A stretch of DNA of 64,000 bases from Aureimonas sp. AU4 (GTDB lineage: Bacteria; Pseudomonadota; Alphaproteobacteria; Rhizobiales; Rhizobiaceae). The position numbers and the translations under genes were made by a program. The stretch spans positions 1 through 64,000 of the forward strand of contig NZ_BBWK01000062.1 of NCBI RefSeq assembly GCF_001463765.1, given 5' to 3'. The notes beneath the pieces were generated by a model. That model saw only the letters and a program-made list of their open reading frames with translations. It made no database searches and was not told the origin of the DNA. Shown here piece after piece: positions 21,524 through 56,167 of this stretch (position 1 is its first letter; each line of letters begins with the position of its first letter).

Positions 21524-22246
21524 ATGCCCGACATGCCCGCCCGCCCGGAACTGCCGAAGCGCTTCTACACCGCGGTCGAGATCGCCGAGGATGCGGCCGG
21601 CTTTTCGGTGCGGCTCGACGGCCGGCCCGTTCGCACGCCGGCCCGCGCACCGTTGGCGCTGCCGACGCGCGAGGCGGCCGAGGGCGTTGCCGAGGAGTGG
21701 CGGAGCCAGCGCGACGTCATCGATCCCGGCACCATGCCCATCACGCGGCTCGCCAACACCGTCATAGACGGCGTCGTATCCAACCCCGATCCGATTCGGC
21801 AGGACCTTGCGCGTTACGCCGAGACCGACCTTCTCGCCTACCGCGCGGACGGACCGGATCGTCTCGTCCGGCGGCAGGCCGAGCAATGGGATCCGATCGT
21901 CCGCTGGGCCGAGGAGGAGGTCGCCGCGCTCTTCGCCACCGGCCAGGGCGTCATGTACGTCGCGCAGCCGCCTGAGACCGTCGCGGCGCTGCGCGCGCGT
22001 CTCGACCGCGAGACGGATCCGTTCCGGCTCGGGGCGCTGCACCAGGCGACGACCCTGACCGGGTCGCTGATCCTCGCGCTGGCGCTTGCGTCGGGTCGTC
22101 TTGATGCCGCCGCCGCATGGTCGCTCGCCCATGTGGACGAGGATTGGAACATCGAGCAGTGGGGCGAGGACGACGAGGCGAGGGCGCGTCGCGACGCACG
22201 CTTTGCCGACATGCGCGCGGCCGCCCTTCTGCTTGGCCGTCGCTGA
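21524..22246 (+). CDS. ATP12 family F1-ATPase assembly chaperone
   Basis: The product is 240 residues. The signature elements are FSVRLDGRPVRTPA near the N terminus, the central DPIVRWAEEEV segment, and LAHVDEDWNIEQWGED near the C terminus. In mitochondria ATP12 (ATPAF2) binds the F1 alpha subunit before assembly with beta; alphaproteobacteria carry the same family. No signal peptide, so cytoplasmic. It ends 3 bp from the convergent molybdopterin gene. Confidence 0.93.
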   Translation: MPDMPARPELPKRFYTAVEIAEDAAGFSVRLDGRPVRTPARAPLALPTREAAEGVAEEWRSQRDVIDPGTMPITRLANTVIDGVVSNPDPIRQDLARYAETDLLAYRADGPDRLVRRQAEQWDPIVRWAEEEVAALFATGQGVMYVAQPPETVAALRARLDRETDPFRLGALHQATTLTGSLILALALASGRLDAAAAWSLAHVDEDWNIEQWGEDDEARARRDARFADMRAAALLLGRR

Positions 22247-48568: not shown

Positions 48569-48703
48569 GAGCCGACCCGCATCGCCCGATCGTGAGGCGA
48601 TCCGGCCTGACTTGTGTTGCATTCAGGCCGACCGTTCGTATATTCCGCGCGACTTGGACAGGGCCTTTTTCAGCGCCTTCTGTCGTTTCGCGAGGAAATT
48701 GGA

Positions 48704-49045
48704 ATGTTCGTCACACCGGCTTTCGCACAGACCGCCACCGCTGCGGGAGGGCCGGAGAGCATTCTGATCAGCGTCCTGCCCTTCGTGGCCGTGTTCGCGA
48801 TCATGTACTTCCTGATCATCCGACCGCAGCGCGCCGCCGCCAAGCGACGTGACGAGATGCTCAAGAACATCCGGCGCGGCGATACGATCATCACCGGCGG
48901 CGGCATCGTGGCGAAGGTCACCAAGGTGATGGACAACGGCGAACTCGAGGTCCAGATTTCCGAGCAGACCAAGATTCGTGTCCTGCAGAGCATGGTCGCC
49001 GACGTGCGCGTGAAGGGCGAGCCCACGGCGGCCAACACGAAATAG
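48704..49045 (+). CDS. yajC: Preprotein translocase subunit YajC
   Basis: YajC associates with SecDF. The product is 113 residues from the ATG at 48704 (GCGAGGAAATTGGA region before it). A short N-terminal stretch (MFVTPAFAQ) is followed by a single transmembrane helix ILISVLPFVAVFAIMYFLII. The conserved cytoplasmic block RPQRAAAKRRDEML then leads to RRGDTIITGGGIVAKV. It is 129 bp before secDF. Confidence 0.95.
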   Translation: MFVTPAFAQTATAAGGPESILISVLPFVAVFAIMYFLIIRPQRAAAKRRDEMLKNIRRGDTIITGGGIVAKVTKVMDNGELEVQISEQTKIRVLQSMVADVRVKGEPTAANTK

Positions 49046-49174
49046 CCGCAAGCGGCGCGCAACTGGCCCGCGTCCGGCACGACAGCCGGGCAGGGCCGCT
49101 CTTCGCCGAAAGGCGTTCCAAAAAGGACTCCGGCGCCCTTGCGTCAGGGGTCCTGTTCGACGTTCAGGATACCG

Positions 49175-51748
49175 ATGCTCTACTTCGCGCGCTGGAAGAC
49201 CATTCTCATCTGGCTGGCCGTTCTGGCGGGTATCCTCTTCGCGCTGCCCAACGTCCTGACCGATAGTCAGCGCGCCAGCCTGCCCCGCTTCATGCCGGAC
49301 AGGCCGATGACGCTGGGTCTCGATCTCCAGGGCGGCTCCTACGTCCTCCTGGAAGTCGACCGCGCGTCGCTCGTCAACGACCGCCTCCAGAGCCTGCGCG
49401 ACGACGTTCAGGTCAGCCTGCGCAACGCCAATGTCGGCTTCAACAGCGTCACCGAGCAGAACGGCGGCATCCAGTTCACCTTGCGCGACCCGACGCAGGC
49501 GGAAGCCGCGCGCACCGCGCTTCAGGGCCTGACCTCGCCGATCTCGACGAGTCTTCTGGCCGGCGGCTCGGTCACCGAGACCGAGCTGGCCGAAATCCAG
49601 CCCAACACGTTCCGCCTGACGTTGACGGATGCCGGCGTGAACTACCGCCTGTCGACCGCCGTCTCGCAGTCGATCGAGGTCGTGCGGCGGCGCGTCGACG
49701 AACTCGGCACGACCGAGCCGGTGATCCAGCGGCAGGGTCTCGACCGGATCATGGTTCAGGTGCCCGGCCTGCAGGATCCCGCTCGTCTCAAGAACCTCTT
49801 GAATCAGACGGCGCGCCTGACCTTCCGCCTGGTCGACGTCAACAACTCCGCCCAGGCCGTCGCTGCCGGGCAGCAGCCCGCGCCGGCCGGCTCGGAACTG
49901 CTTCAGACCACCGACAACCCGCCGGCGCCGATCCTCGTGCAGCGGCAGGTCATGATCGCGGGCGACAACCTGACGGACGCGCAGGCTGGCTTCGACCAGC
50001 AGACCAACCAGCCGGTGGTGAACATCCGCTTCGACTCGCGCGGCGCCCAGCGCTTCGGCGAGGTGACGCGTGACAACGTCAACCGCCCCTTCGCCATCGT
50101 CCTCGACGACAAGGTCCTGTCGGCGCCCAACATCCGCGAGCCGATCCTTGGCGGACAGGCTCAGATCTCCGGCAACTTCACGGTGCAGACCGCGAACGAC
50201 CTGGCGGTTCTGCTGCGCGCGGGCGCCCTGCCTGCGACGCTCGACATCATCGAGGAGCGGACCGTCGGTCCGGGCCTTGGCGCCGACTCCGTCGCGGCCG
50301 GGCAGAACGCCGGCATCATCGGTGGCGTCTTCGTGATCGCCTTCATGCTGATCGCCTACGGCTTTCTCGGCGTCATCGCCAACATCGCGCTGATCGTGAA
50401 CGTCATTCTCCTGGTGGCGGTTCTCTCGGTGCTGGGCTCGACGCTGACGCTGCCGGGCATCGCCGGCATCGTGCTCACCATGGGCATGGCGGTCGATTCG
50501 AACGTCCTCATCTACGAACGCATCCTGGAGGAACGGCGACAGGGACGATCCGTCGTCCAGTCGATCGACGCCGGCTTCCACAAGGCGCTCGGCACGATCA
50601 TGGACGCCAACATCACGACGCTGATCGCGGCGGCCGTTCTGTTCTTCCTCGGCTCCGGTCCGGTGCGTGGCTTCGCCGTGACGCTGGCGCTCGGCATCTT
50701 CACGACGATCTTCACGGCGCTGACGTTGACGCGCTGGATGGTGGCCTTCTGGGTGCGCCGCCGCCGTCCGAAGGAAGTGCCGCGCGGCTATAACTTCATT
50801 CCGCACGGCACGAACGTCCGCTTCATGGCGATCCGCAAATGGGCCTTCGCCACGACGCTCAGCCTATCGGTCCTGGCGATCGCCAGCGTCTTTGTCGGCG
50901 GCCTCAACTTCGGCATCGACTTCACGGGCGGAACGGTCCTCGAGCTGCGTGCCAAGGGCGATGCCGCAGACGTCGCCAAGATCCGGGAAGACCTGTCCCC
51001 GATCGTGGATGGCGACATTCAGGTTCAGGAGTTCGGCACCCCCCGCGACGTCCTGATCCGCTTCGCGGTTCAGCCGCAGGATGCGGCGAACCCGCAGGCA
51101 AGCGTCAATGCGGTTCGCGGCGCCCTCGCGCAGGACTACGACTTCCAACGCGTCGAGGTCGTCGGACCGACCGTGTCGGGTGAACTCGCCTGGGCCGCCA
51201 TCTTCGGCGTCGGCGCGGCGATGCTCGCCATAGCGGTCTACGTCTGGGTGCGGTTCGAGTGGCACTTCGCCGTCGGCGCGCTGCTCGCAACGGCTCACGA
51301 TGTCGCCATGGCGATGGGCTTCCTCGTCGTGTCGCAGCTCGAGTTCAACCTATCGACCATCGCCGCGCTGCTGACGATCGTCGGCTACTCGCTGAACGAC
51401 ACGGTGGTGGTGTTCGACCGCATCCGCGAGAATCTGCGCAAGTACAAGAAGATGCCGATCGCCGACATCATCGATCTGTCGCTGAACGAGACGCTGTCCC
51501 GCACGATGCTGACGGCCGTCACTCTTGTGCTCGCGCTGGTGGCCCTCTACGGCTTCGGCGGCGACGTGATCCGCGTCTTCGTCGCGCCGATGCTGGTCGG
51601 CGTTCTGGTCGGCGTCTATTCGTCGATCTTCATCGCCGCGCCGATCCTCATCTACTTCCGCCTGCGGCCGGATAGCATCAAGGGCGGTGCGACCGACGAG
51701 ACGGCCAAGCCGAGCCCGTCCGGTGGTGCCACCGCCGGCAAGGCCTGA
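49175..51748 (+). CDS. secDF: Fused protein translocase SecDF
   Basis: SecD and SecF use the proton gradient to pull exported proteins. Here they are one 857-residue chain. The SecD half (to about 530) contains LGLDLQGGSYVLLEV and the GMAVDSNVLIYERI motif. A conserved GTNVRFMAIRK-type linker leads to the SecF half with GGLNFGIDFTGG and GYSLNDTVVVFDRIREN. About 12 membrane helices in total. An earlier TTG at 49139 is an alternative start. Fusion is known from several alphaproteobacteria. Confidence 0.96.
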   Translation: MLYFARWKTILIWLAVLAGILFALPNVLTDSQRASLPRFMPDRPMTLGLDLQGGSYVLLEVDRASLVNDRLQSLRDDVQVSLRNANVGFNSVTEQNGGIQFTLRDPTQAEAARTALQGLTSPISTSLLAGGSVTETELAEIQPNTFRLTLTDAGVNYRLSTAVSQSIEVVRRRVDELGTTEPVIQRQGLDRIMVQVPGLQDPARLKNLLNQTARLTFRLVDVNNSAQAVAAGQQPAPAGSELLQTTDNPPAPILVQRQVMIAGDNLTDAQAGFDQQTNQPVVNIRFDSRGAQRFGEVTRDNVNRPFAIVLDDKVLSAPNIREPILGGQAQISGNFTVQTANDLAVLLRAGALPATLDIIEERTVGPGLGADSVAAGQNAGIIGGVFVIAFMLIAYGFLGVIANIALIVNVILLVAVLSVLGSTLTLPGIAGIVLTMGMAVDSNVLIYERILEERRQGRSVVQSIDAGFHKALGTIMDANITTLIAAAVLFFLGSGPVRGFAVTLALGIFTTIFTALTLTRWMVAFWVRRRRPKEVPRGYNFIPHGTNVRFMAIRKWAFATTLSLSVLAIASVFVGGLNFGIDFTGGTVLELRAKGDAADVAKIREDLSPIVDGDIQVQEFGTPRDVLIRFAVQPQDAANPQASVNAVRGALAQDYDFQRVEVVGPTVSGELAWAAIFGVGAAMLAIAVYVWVRFEWHFAVGALLATAHDVAMAMGFLVVSQLEFNLSTIAALLTIVGYSLNDTVVVFDRIRENLRKYKKMPIADIIDLSLNETLSRTMLTAVTLVLALVALYGFGGDVIRVFVAPMLVGVLVGVYSSIFIAAPILIYFRLRPDSIKGGATDETAKPSPSGGATAGKA

Positions 51749-51756
51749 GCCGGGCG

Positions 51757-52146
51757 ATGGCCGACGAGCAGGTCATCCGCGACGCGCACTATCCGCGTCG
51801 CGCTCCGGTCGATGCCTACGGTTCGGGTGGCTTCCGTTTCGCCGACATGTCGCATCGGGGCTCGCTGCTGTGCCTCCCGTCCGGCATCTACGGATGGGAC
51901 GCAACGCCCGAGGCGCCGTTCGGCGGGGAGCGCCTTCTGAAGGTCTTCGAGGAACGCGACGACATTCGCTTCTTCCTCTACGGGACGGGACGGGACATTC
52001 GGCGCCTTCCTCCCGCGCTCACCGATCGCTTCCGCGCTGCCGGCATCTCGGTCGATCCGATGTCGACCGGGGCCGCGGTGCGCACCTACAACATCATGCT
52101 GGCCGAGGGCCGGCCCGTCGGCGCCGCTCTGATCGCGGTGGATTGA
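51757..52146 (+). CDS. Mth938-like domain protein (NDUFAF3 family)
   Basis: The product is 129 residues with the family pattern of FADMSHRGSLLCLPSGIYGW, FLYGTGRDIRRLP and STGAAVRTYNIMLAEGRPV in three blocks. The mitochondrial member NDUFAF3 is a complex I assembly factor, and bacterial homologues often sit next to secDF as here. It starts 8 bp after the secDF stop. The bacterial function is inferred. Confidence 0.85.
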   Translation: MADEQVIRDAHYPRRAPVDAYGSGGFRFADMSHRGSLLCLPSGIYGWDATPEAPFGGERLLKVFEERDDIRFFLYGTGRDIRRLPPALTDRFRAAGISVDPMSTGAAVRTYNIMLAEGRPVGAALIAVD

Positions 52147-52150
52147 CCCG

Positions 52151-52993
52151 ATGAGCGATGCGGGACGAAGTGCAGGGCTCGACGGCTTTGCGGAATGCGA
52201 GCGGCTTCTGGCCGAGGGCGATCCCGAACGCGCCGTCTCGGTCGGCTTCGCTCCGGCGGACCGGCGCGACGCGCTGAACGCCCTTTATGCGTTCAACCTC
52301 GAGACGGCTCGCGTTCGCGATCACGTCAGCCAGCCGCTGCCGGGTGAGATCCGGTTGCAGTGGTGGCGTGACCGGATCGAGGCCGACCCTGGTTCCGAAG
52401 AACCGGGGCAGGGCTCGCCCGTCGCGGCGGCCCTCGTCGAGACGATTCGGCGGCATGATCTGCCGACCGACGCCTTCGATCGCTTTCTCGAGGCCCGCAT
52501 CTTCGATCTCTACGACGACCCGATGCCGTCGGTGACCGATTTCGAGGCCTATGCGGGGCAGACGGCTTCGACGCTGATCGTCCTCGCCTCGATGGTCCTC
52601 GACCGTGCCGAGGCGCACCGTATCACGGAGGCCGCGGGACATGCCGGGGTCGCGCAGCTCGCGGTCGGTGTCCTGCGCCTTGCCACGATCCATCGCCGAC
52701 GCAACCAGGTTTTCGTGCCGGTCGATCTCCTCGCCTCGGTCGGAACGGATGCCGCCGACTGGCTGGCGGGCGGCGAAGGGGCGAAGCGAGCGGAAGCCGC
52801 GATGGCCGCGCTGGCCGCGGATCACCTTGAGAAGGCGCGAACCCATCTTCGTGCCGCGCCACGTCAGTTCCGCCCGGCCTTCCTGCCGGCCCTTCTGACA
52901 TCCCGGCATCTCGCCAAGCTGGACCGCGATTCGCCGCAGCCCGTCGGCCCGCTCGATCGCCTCTGGTTCTACTGGCGGAGCATGCGCGGTTGA
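52151..52993 (+). CDS. Phytoene/squalene synthase family protein, NDUFAF6-like
   Basis: The product is 280 residues with an isoprenoid-synthase fold, recognisable by LNALYAFNLETARVRDHV and GEIRLQWWRDRI. True synthases carry Asp-rich motifs (such as DELVD) at the position of LETARVRD; here the aspartate pattern is absent, so catalysis of prenyl condensation is unlikely. The same substitution occurs in NDUFAF6, a complex I assembly factor. It begins 4 bp after the Mth938 gene, supporting a joint role. Confidence 0.82.
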   Translation: MSDAGRSAGLDGFAECERLLAEGDPERAVSVGFAPADRRDALNALYAFNLETARVRDHVSQPLPGEIRLQWWRDRIEADPGSEEPGQGSPVAAALVETIRRHDLPTDAFDRFLEARIFDLYDDPMPSVTDFEAYAGQTASTLIVLASMVLDRAEAHRITEAAGHAGVAQLAVGVLRLATIHRRRNQVFVPVDLLASVGTDAADWLAGGEGAKRAEAAMAALAADHLEKARTHLRAAPRQFRPAFLPALLTSRHLAKLDRDSPQPVGPLDRLWFYWRSMRG

Positions 52994-54771
52994 TCGCAAC
53001 GGCGCGCAGCGTGCGTGCGGGACGAGTGAGGGCGCTCGCCGCTGCCGTTGTCGACCTGGTCCGCCGGGCAACCTCCCGCTTTCCGGTCACCACAGCGCTT
53101 GTCGTTCTGTTCGGAACGCTCGCCGTCGCTGAGCAACTCGACCTGACGGGTGATGCTTTATCAACCGCGCGGCTCCTCGTAGCCTTGAGCGGGGCTGCGG
53201 CCGCTTCCCTTGCCGGACATCTTCTGACGGAGGGGCGGCTCGCGAGCGCCGTGCTTCGGATTCTCACGTCCGCAGGCCTCGCCGCGATGGCGGGAAGCGC
53301 GCTCTGGCTCGCCGAGCCCTTCGAACTCTACGGGCCGATCCTGATCGCGACCTGCGTCGGCGCCGTACCGGTCGTCGGCATGGCGGGTCGGGGAAGCGCG
53401 GCCGACTTCTGGGGCTTCGTCCTCTGGACGACCGCCGGGATCGTCCTCGCCTTCCTGGCTGTGGTCGTCTTCTCGGTCGGTGTCTACGCCATCCTCCAGA
53501 TGCTCGAATACCTTCTGGACGTGCCACGCTTCCAGCGGATCGAATCGGCAGTCTGGGTAGCGGCGATCTCGCTGGTCGGGCCACTCGTCGCGCTCGGGCG
53601 TGTCCCTCCGACCAGCGGCCCCGAAATCGCCTTCGATCCGCAGGAACGCTTCGTGCGGACCACGCGGCCCCTGGCGGACTGGGTGCTCGCGCCCCTCGTG
53701 CTGGCGGCCGCAGCGGTCATTCACCTTTATGCCGCGCGCATCGCTTTGACGGGAGATGTCCCGAAGGGCCAGATCGGCTGGATCGTCTCGGCCTATCTGC
53801 TGGCCGTTCTCCTGATGCGGATCGCGATCGACCCCTTCGCAGCGCAGGAGGCCGCGCCAGCGCGCCTGTTCAGGCGCCTGTGGTCCTGGTTTCTCGTCGT
53901 CCCCCTCGGCCTCCTCGCCTACGCGCTCTGGCTGCGGGTGGCGACGGAGGGCGTCACCGTCAGCCGCTACGTCCTCGGCCTATGGCTGGTTGCCGGGGTG
54001 CTGGCGCTGGCGGCTCAGGCCGTGCCACGCTGGCGCGGCGATATCCGCATCCTGTCGGCCATTCCGCTCGGGCTCCTCCTCCTGTCGACCTTCGGACCGT
54101 GGGGCGTTGCCGCGACGGTGACAGGGAGTCAGCTCGCTTTCCTCGATCGTGACTACGGACCGTTGCTTCGCGAAGCCGGACGCGGTGGTGGCGCACCGGC
54201 CGGAGCCTCGTCCGTCATCTCCTCGCGCCTGGAAGCGCTCGAAAGCGTCGGGGCACTGCGCCGCGTGGCGGGTCTCGTCTCGGCCGAACGGCAGAGCGAT
54301 CCGATCTGGTCCCGACCGAACCTGCTGACCTGGGACGTCGTCGCCTTTCTAGCGCTTGAGCCACAGCCGCCCGAGCCGCCTCGCGCCCGGTACTTCGTGG
54401 CCCGGAGCGGAGACGCGCTGGATACGAGCGGTTTCGATCGCGTCGTCTTCCGGGACGCGCAAGACCCCGGCGCCCCGCTCGCATCCGTCGACATCCGTCT
54501 AACGCAAGGGCGGTCCGAGCTCGCCATCCGCATCGGTTCGCTGACCGATACGCTCGATTTGGCACCCATTCTCGCGACGCTGCCATGGACGGATGAGCGC
54601 GGTGTCGCCACCGCGACGCCGGCCGTCGCGGACCTCACGACGGCCGGGGGTCGCCATATGCGGGTGCGCGTCGAGCGCGCGAACCTCGTTCTGGACGACC
54701 GGCTGGTGGCACTCGCCGCCGCGTATCTCTGGCGGGACGCGGAGTGGCGGGCCGCTACTCCGCCGCGATAG
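52990..54771 (+). CDS. DUF4153 family multi-pass membrane protein
   Basis: The product is 593 residues with about ten hydrophobic segments in the first 390 and a soluble C-terminal part. The family has no assigned function. The TTG start at 52990 overlaps the preceding stop as TTGA and has a CGGAG ribosome binding site; GTG at 53011 is an alternative. Its 3' end overlaps the 3' end of trmFO by 17 bp on the other strand. Confidence 0.8.
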
Positions 54772-56167
54772 CGGCCGGCTCCGCGATACCGAGCCAGGCG
54801 CGGCAGTCGGACAGGGCGCGAGCCGAGAGAGCGTGCTTCTTCGCCACGGTCTTCTCCTTGCCGCGCAGGCGCTTGCCCTCCTCGCGCGGAACCTCGATCG
54901 GGGGAAAGAGGCCGAAGTTGACATTCATCGGCTGGAAGGACCGCTTGCCTCCTTCCTCCTCGGTCGATAGGTGGCCGCCGGTGATGTGGGCGAGGAGCGC
55001 GCCCATCGCCGTGGTGACGGGTGGCGGCGACGCCGCTCGGCCGAGGGCCTCGGCCGCCGCGAAGCGCCCGGCCATGAGACCGACCGAGGCGGACTCCACA
55101 TAACCTTCGCAGCCCGTGATCTGACCTGCGAAGCGCAGCGCCGGACGGCTCTTCAGCCGCAGCGTCGCATCGAGCAGGGTCGGCGAGTTGAGGTAGGTGT
55201 TCCGGTGCAGACCGCCGAGCCGGGCGAACTCCGCGTTCTCTAGGCCCGGAATGGTCCGGAAGACGCGGACCTGATCGGCGTAGCGCAGCTTCGTCTGGAA
55301 GCCCACCATGTTGTACAGCGTGCCGAGGGCGTTATCCTGGCGCAGCTGCACGACGGCATGGGGCTTGGTGGCGGGGTCGTGGGCATTGGTCAGGCCCATC
55401 GGCTTCATCGGACCCCAGCGCAACGTCTCAGGACCACGCTCCGCCATGACCTCGATCGGCAGGCAGCCGTCGAAATAGGGCGTGCCTTCCCACTCGCGGA
55501 ACTCGGTCTTATCACTGGCGAGAAGCGCGGCGATGAAGCCCTCGTACTGCTCGCGGCTCATCGGGCAGTTCACGTAGTCCTTGCCCGTGCCGCCAGGCCC
55601 GACCTTATCGTAGCGCGACTGGAACCAGGCCTTCGTCATGTCGATCGTGTCGAAATGTACGATCGGCGCGATGGCGTCGAAGAAGGCGAGGGCGTCCGAT
55701 CCGGTCTCGGCGCGGATCGCCTCGGCGAGCGCCGGCGCCGTCAGCGGACCGGTCGCGACGATGGTCGGTCCCCATTCGGCGGGCGGCAGGCCGGAGACCT
55801 CCTCGCGGCGCACGTCGATCAGCCGATGCGCCACGATCTCAGCGGTCACGCGCTCGGCAAAGCCATCGCGGTCGACCGCGAGCGCGCCGCCGGCTGGAAC
55901 CTGATGGGCGTCCGCGCAGCGCATGATCAGCGAGCCGGCCAACCGCATCTCGGCATGGAGCACGCCGACCGCGTTGGACTGCGCGTCGTCGGAGCGGAAG
56001 GAGTTGGAGCAGACGAGCTCCGCCAGAGAGTCGGTCTTGTGGGCATCCGTGCCGCGCGTTCCGCGCATCTCGTGGAGCATGACGGGCACGCCCGCCTCGG
56101 CGATCTGCCATGCGGCTTCGGAGCCGGCGAGGCCGCCGCCGACGATGTGGATGGGTGTCTGGGTCAT
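54755..56167 (-). CDS. trmFO: Methylene-THF-tRNA-uridine-54 methyltransferase TrmFO
   Basis: A folate- and FAD-dependent enzyme that makes m5U54 in tRNA, in place of SAM-dependent TrmA. The product is 470 residues. The FAD motif [11 protein letters not shown] is at 10-20, followed by the family signatures [26 protein letters not shown] and [19 protein letters not shown], where the second and third anchor the folate site. It lies 51 bp downstream of the epimerase on the minus strand. Confidence 0.96.

Follow-up and report, generated by a model that had tools for sequence, protein, structure and literature searches.

Relatives of the mitochondrial factors NDUFAF3 and NDUFAF6 downstream of secDF as candidate assembly helpers of mitochondrial-type complex I in Alphaproteobacteria

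ND1 of complex I corresponds to NuoH, and the membrane arm of the enzyme and its Q module join there. By gene order, NDUFAF3 was reportedly linked by Saada et al. in 2009 (cited in PMC3436739) to SecF/SecD/YajC and C8ORF38, and the same role in complex I is said to have been proposed there for these genes. Hence, the association of this gene pair with complex I is already known as an idea: that work reportedly dealt with the same genes, the same neighborhood and the same proposed role, and is not known to have compared types of complex I or genomes devoid of nuo genes. According to PMC8007014 and PMC10910544, NDUFAF3 (C3orf60) is a mitochondrial complex I assembly factor tied to the Q module, and human NDUFAF6 (C8orf38) is tied to the biogenesis of ND1. 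PMC8007014 further describes Candida NDU1, required for both assembly and activity of complex I, as the fungal orthologue of human NDUFAF6, and states that both DxxxD motifs are absent from NDU1, NDUFAF6 and their orthologues, which retain the squalene/phytoene synthase (SQS/PSY) fold.

We analyzed a stretch of 64,000 nucleotides from Aureimonas sp. AU4 (contig NZ_BBWK01000062.1, positions 1 to 64,000), which is further referred to as the window. A preliminary description of this DNA had pointed to two genes lying 4 bp apart after secDF and encoding an Mth938-domain protein and a phytoene-synthase-fold protein without the Asp-rich motif. Both reading frames were found where they had been placed (Table 1); they are called AF3 and AF6 below, and encode 129 and 280 aa, respectively, each from an ATG start. 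Four bases (cccg) lie between the AF3 stop and the AF6 start, and the end of secDF (position 51748) is separated from AF3 by 8 bp. AF3, AF6 and secDF are likely to form one operon. The secDF reading frame starts with TTG, an internal ATG at 49175 being a possible alternative, and the probable start of yajC is an ATG within a longer reading frame (48614-49045). The TTG start of the DUF4153-like gene overlaps the AF6 stop; this gene is perhaps co-transcribed with AF6, and no relative of it was found in 51 AF3 loci of other genomes. The ATP12 homologue that had been annotated at position 21524 was confirmed as well (21524-22246; PF07542, 129.9 bits with a cut-off of 27). The genome contains one NuoD match.

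Table 1. Genes of the AF3-AF6 locus in the window
Gene	Product	Coordinates	Strand	Profile matches
yajC	YajC	48704..49045	+	PF02699, 83.7 bits; TIGR00739, 78.6 bits (cut-off 44.2)
secDF	Fused SecD-SecF	49139..51748	+	PF02355, PF22599, PF21760; TIGR01129, TIGR00966
AF3	DUF498/Mth938 protein, alphaproteobacterial relative of NDUFAF3	51757..52146	+	PF04430, 1.9e-27
AF6	SQS/PSY-fold protein without Asp-rich motifs, relative of NDUFAF6	52151..52993	+	PF00494, 2.5e-49
	DUF4153-like membrane protein	52990..54771	+	PF13687, 24.7 bits (just below the cut-off of 27)
trmFO	TrmFO (convergent)	54755..56167	-	PF01134, 323.8 bits

The assignment of AF3 to the Mth938 family holds: its match to PF04430 (95.8 bits, cut-off 33) covers profile positions 1-109 of 109, and relatives of solved structure are available (2fi9 and 2fvt). 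In the GAACRTYN motif the window protein has Val at the position where most relatives carry Cys. The Mth938/DUF498 domain is shared with NDUFAF3, parts of the human sequence of which match the profile of the AF3 alignment (A2, 52 rows) with E 1.7e-24 and 28% identity over 112 columns; this match serves as a lead only. The DUF498 family is wider than complex I. It includes proteins of known structure from outside the class (3cpk, 2k2e, 2gm2) and human AAMDC (2ab1), the latter matching A2 at 3e-6. A sequence search of the PDB returned no chain of NDUFAF3 or NDUFAF6.

AF6 was likewise described correctly as having the phytoene-synthase fold (PF00494, 168.8 bits, cut-off 26) without the Asp-rich motif, both DxxxD motifs being absent from the window protein. 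All NCBIfam models of the enzymes score it far below their cut-offs: the best is HpnD (79.9 bits versus 278.6), followed at a distance by two CrtB models (30.8 of 500 and 26.1 of 550 bits) and HpnC (28.8 bits, cut-off 250.45). The first Asp motif is gone in 37 relatives of AF6 and in 10 short variants, and the second one is either absent there or not alignable. The alignment of AF6 (A1) was built from 33 proteins, that is, 32 relatives and the window protein, after five partial or divergent sequences of the 37 had been left out. Its invariant residues are D24, R27, R68, W72, L95, R116, D119 and P190. The site occupied by DDxxD in the enzymes is replaced in AF6 with a pattern like FNxEIARxRExVSEPxLGxIRLQWWRD, and the site of the second motif reads GLLRAxPFHA in most AF6 proteins. 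The predicted model of AF6 (pLDDT 91.5) matches CrtM-like and dehydrosqualene synthases over almost the whole length, the best structural match being 8is6 (Z 28.4, rmsd 2.4, 267 aligned residues). AF6 shares with HpnD, HpnC and CrtB the fold and a distant sequence similarity, and differs from them in the loss of the Asp motifs and in its position on the tree, where 16 enzymes of the HpnD, HpnC and CrtB types and 43 AF6 proteins, all of them bacterial and the latter including the 10 short variants, are split by a 100/100 branch. Judging from the sequence, AF6 is not an enzyme of the squalene/phytoene synthase fold. The genome of the window has a separate CrtB-like phytoene synthase gene with intact Asp motifs on another contig. 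The closest named relative of AF6 among those returned is from Aureimonas jatrophae (82% identity).

The absence of DxxxD from a protein of this fold is common to AF6, NDUFAF6 and NDU1 (PMC8007014 for the latter two); the difference is that AF6 is bacterial and probably shares an operon with AF3 and secDF. Parts of human NDUFAF6 match the A1 profile with E 2.3e-40 and 30% identity over 256 columns, again as a lead only. The short or divergent variants of AF6 (L285-L294, 224-311 aa) retain the N-terminal RLQWWR-like signature, and large parts of the second half, conserved in other AF6 proteins, are gone.

Alphaproteobacteria widely share the order yajC-secD(F)-AF3-AF6. We considered 51 AF3 loci of the class, hand-picked among the matches listed so as to be spread over families, some of them being cut by contig ends. 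yajC lies on the same strand as AF3 in 50 of these loci, and secDF is located upstream of AF3 in 49 (within 250 bp in 46). AF6 is found at most 5 kb from AF3 on the same strand in 37 of the 51, and trmFO, on the other strand, in 29. The gene that often separates AF3 and AF6 is on the other strand and encodes either SodB or a urate_ox_N membrane protein; a methyltransferase similar to NDUFAF5, considered as a candidate for this position, was found in none of the loci. In the best 80 loci from named genomes, which all belong to Hyphomicrobiales and say nothing about breadth, AF3 precedes AF6 on the same strand in 79 cases, and in the 80th the contig ends first. The two genes are nearly always adjacent in these 79 loci, the distance reaching 2.8 kb in L142. 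Such an arrangement is not due to chance. In 75 of the 80 loci trmFO runs in the opposite direction; it is the usual neighbor beyond AF6. Coupling to secDF, which had been proposed together with the pair, stands in part: the order with yajC and secDF is conserved, but the linkage is loose, as secDF is present in 71 of the 80 loci and in eight (L122, L128, L131, L143, L147, L148, L153, L160; Rhizobium, Neorhizobium and a Rhizobiales isolate) the locus reads yajC-AF3-AF6 without it.

SQS-type genes that have Asp motifs adjoin AF6 in several loci. They score as HpnC and HpnD in L034 and as HpnD-like in L055, only the HpnD of L034 being above the cut-off; others were seen in L038, L054, L067 and L079, and L081 contains a further weak SQS-type match. 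These neighbors may be a hint that AF6 arose by duplication.

The distribution of both genes was compared with that of complex I in 389 alphaproteobacterial genomes, complex I being defined by the presence of NuoD or NuoH. NuoD was found in 351 genomes; a search of the remaining 38 for NuoH gave a match in G290 only, leaving 37 genomes without either. G067, with a weak NuoD and no NuoH, was kept in the complex I group. G290, which has NuoH and AF6, was treated as a complex I genome in the analysis of AF3 and enters none of the AF6 counts. AF3 is present in 234 of the 389 genomes, namely in 233 of 352 with complex I (in one of them, G002, the match is below the family cut-off) versus one of 37 without (Fisher p 6.6e-15). 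Genome size confounds this association, since 36 of the 37 genomes lacking nuo do not exceed 2.0 Mb; among genomes of this size AF3 occurs in 12 of 87 with complex I versus none of 36 without (p 0.012, kinship not corrected). Two genomes of 1.5 Mb, G159 and G225, keep AF3, AF6 and complex I.

Proteins were called AF6 if they scored at least 170 bits or if a lower match had the range of the AF6-specific N-terminal part. With the score threshold alone, AF6 was found in 55 of 80 genomes having both nuo and AF3 (hand-picked from 232), in 21 of 119 genomes with nuo and no or weak AF3, and in one of 37 without nuo (p 0.014 for the comparison of AF3-less genomes). With the lower matches called by alignment range these numbers become 64 of 80, 46 of 119 and one of 37. 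The range-called proteins come from nine genomes with nuo and AF3 and from 25 with nuo and no AF3, the latter including six matches below 55 bits and a full-length match of 134 bits in G017. Seven of the 34 sequences were fetched; together with those from family f21 discussed below, all 10 fetched range-called proteins (L285-L294; G248 is counted in both samples) fall into the AF6 clade on the tree. Ambiguous full-length matches below 135 bits outside f21 (e.g. in G062, G088, G100 and G373) were not counted as AF6, and the one in G373, a genome without nuo, proved to be HpnD. SQS-type genes in the absence of AF6 are present in five of six nuo-less genomes of family f37, and the two that were checked score best as HpnD.

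A genome with AF6 or AF3 nearly always has complex I, while the reverse does not hold. Co-occurrence with nuo rather than with hopanoid genes had been proposed as a check of the complex I role; AF6 passes it clearly and AF3 more weakly. The suggestion of a bacterial complex I assembly module is partly supported, by the protein families, the motif loss, the conserved gene order and the co-occurrence, but many genomes with complex I have neither gene. The draft genome G229 (L082; 130 contigs, 96% complete) contains AF3 and AF6 without NuoD or NuoH; its genus-mate G085 has NuoD, and the nuo genes of G229 are either missing from the assembly or truly absent.

Family f21 offers a comparison of two types of complex I. 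It is probably Acetobacteraceae, judging from its make-up and from PMC10715153, where Acetobacteraceae are described as having separate nuo13 and nuo14 operons. Eighty f21 genomes were searched with the AF6 profile. NuoD is unfused in some of them and part of a fused NuoCD in others; further genomes have both forms, and the rest have none. The type of complex I was read from the score, the start and the ORF length, and Pfam analysis of four proteins agreed with it. All three of the scanned proteins read as fused indeed consist of NuoC and NuoD. The fused protein of G405 is closest to NuoCD of E. coli (795.9 bits; 376 for the next kind); for the unfused NuoD of G432, the closest kind is mammalian NDUFS2 (613 bits). 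In this family AF6 was called at a score of at least 113 bits (49 of 58 genomes) or by the AF6 range (G116, G248, G389, G396, G409 and G441, four of these six sequences having been fetched); matches of the HpnD type score at most 108.5 bits. The 58 genomes are those outside the groups with fused NuoCD only and without complex I. They include four drafts with AF6 and a broken or missing NuoD, which were left out of the comparison below: G399 and G495 have AF6 together with NuoH of alpha-type score, and G406 and G449 have AF6 without a clear alpha-type complex I.

AF6 was found in 51 of 54 f21 genomes with a full NuoD of the alphaproteobacterial type, in none of 12 with fused NuoCD only, and in none of 10 without complex I, that is, with no NuoD above the cut-off and no NuoH (p 3e-16, kinship not corrected). 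The three genomes with the alpha-type NuoD in which no AF6 was found are G434, G445 and G499. All eight genomes read as having both types of complex I keep AF6. Since the genomes with fused NuoCD only still have a complex I, this contrast separates the alpha-type enzyme from complex I as such. The co-existence of two complex I enzymes (L266-L271) was confirmed in G432 and read from the score and ORF length in seven more genomes. The 22 AF6-less genomes with fused NuoCD only or without complex I still have SQS-type matches, one in G481 and two in each of the others. The best of these was fetched in 17 genomes and scores best as HpnD in all 17 (14 above the cut-off, two just below it, one a fragment). 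The first Asp motif is seen in 16 of them, the 17th (G187) being the fragment, and the Asp motifs are present wherever the fetched stretch covers them.

A phylogenetic tree of rpoB was built for 71 of the 80 genomes, nine without a whole rpoB being left out. The 21 AF6-less genomes placed on it, with fused NuoCD only or without complex I, form one clade (SH-aLRT 98), and hence the contrast represents one evolutionary event. The clade adjoins G409, which has the alpha-type enzyme and AF6, as well as G417, G432, G443 and G475, which were read as having both types and keep AF6.

The 30 fetched AF6 loci of f21 are often near yajC with sodB between them on the opposite strand, some with trmFO beyond; neither secDF nor AF3 was found near AF6 in the fetched stretches of 2.3-3.9 kb. 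Coupling to secDF is weakened further here, since yajC is often seen within about 1.5 kb of AF6, and neither AF3 nor secDF is. None of the six genomes that represent f21 in the class sample has AF3. We also considered, and rejected, that a diverged AF3 might lie hidden in the gap from yajC to AF6: the gene in this gap is sodB on the opposite strand in 13 loci (its identity being confirmed by Pfam in one of the 13), and the AF3 profile gave no match in the gaps between yajC and AF6. AF3 and AF6 form a pair in the sense of conserved order, but the pair is not obligate, as AF6 persists without AF3 in f21.

Outside Alphaproteobacteria, no AF6 was found among the candidates scored, at most eight per genome, in 299 genomes of the phylum. 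Matches there score no higher than 167.5 bits. Ten of the stronger ones (not exactly the best ten) all score best as HpnD, nine of them above the cut-off. The tenth, L280 from G681, is HpnD-like and just below it, with degenerate Asp motifs and 259.5 bits versus the cut-off of 278.6; catalytic activity may have been lost here independently once more within this fold.

Given its fold and the SQS-type genes beside it in some loci, AF6 could be an isoprenoid (hopanoid or carotenoid) enzyme or a lipid-binding protein placed beside AF3 by chance. We consider this very unlikely, as all aligned AF6 proteins have lost the first Asp motif, and also the second wherever it is alignable, AF6 and the enzymes lie on the two sides of a fully supported branch, the genome of the window has its own CrtB-like gene, and HpnD is kept without AF6 in all 17 f21 genomes checked, in two nuo-less f37 genomes and in nuo-less G373. 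A hopanoid or carotenoid role as the main reading was rejected on these grounds: the motif loss, the separate clade and the HpnD kept without AF6. The tight gene order with yajC and secDF would agree with AF3 and AF6 being general accessories of SecDF-YajC-mediated insertion, linked to complex I only indirectly. Against this, f21 genomes without the alpha-type complex I have no AF6, AF6 occurs near yajC in f21 with no secDF found in the fetched stretches, and in eight of the 80 named loci no secDF was found beside yajC-AF3-AF6; we assign this explanation a low probability.

An equally small chance is given to the co-occurrence being a side effect of genome reduction or of a broader change in respiration, with AF6 serving some other component lost on the same branches, e.g. 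the bc1 complex. Alphaproteobacteria without nuo mostly have small genomes, the f21 contrast is a single event, and PMC10715153 mentions deranged bc1 complexes in Acetobacteraceae too. At the same time, the four genomes read as having both complex I types beside the AF6-less clade keep AF6, the 1.5 Mb genomes G159 and G225 keep AF3, AF6 and complex I, and the human and Candida proteins of the AF6 family act on complex I, according to PMC8007014.

The interpretation that we consider fairly probable, based on sequence comparison, is that AF3 and AF6 are assembly helpers for complex I of the alphaproteobacterial (mitochondrial) type. The predicted fold, the motif loss, the conserved locus, the co-occurrence and the absence of AF6 from one f21 clade make the link to complex I plausible, the comparative support being mainly for AF6. 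Both proteins would be cytosolic, membrane-associated helpers in building the alpha-type enzyme. AF6 may be a former prenyl-diphosphate synthase that lost the metal-binding aspartates and now functions by binding, most likely at the step that joins NuoH (ND1) with the quinone module. There it could hold NuoH, or a lipid or quinone needed at this place, until docking of the Q module, with AF3 acting as its escort and serving the same stage on the hydrophilic side. We propose that AF3 and AF6 are made together with YajC-SecDF because membrane subunits that this machinery inserts are part of their client. AF3 and AF6 may also be orthologous to the mitochondrial factors.

What is new, as far as we know, is that the distribution in one family suggests that AF6 tracks the mitochondrial-type, and not the E. 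coli-type, complex I. We know of no knockout or complementation of bacterial AF6, and in the literature searched, mostly without subscription journals, there was no bacterial knockout of AF3 or AF6. With a slight preference over the contrary, we suppose that AF6 is a dedicated helper of the alphaproteobacterial-mitochondrial complex I, which the E. coli type does not need, and that mitochondria inherited the helper with the enzyme. If so, the loss of AF6 in bacteria having both types (e.g. G432) would disable one complex I and spare the other. The short likely operon and the relatives with two complex I enzymes would turn the role of AF6 into a simple genetic and biochemical problem that can be addressed inside one cell. 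The answer would tell which part of complex I is served by AF6, namely one in which the mitochondrial and the E. coli type are unlike.
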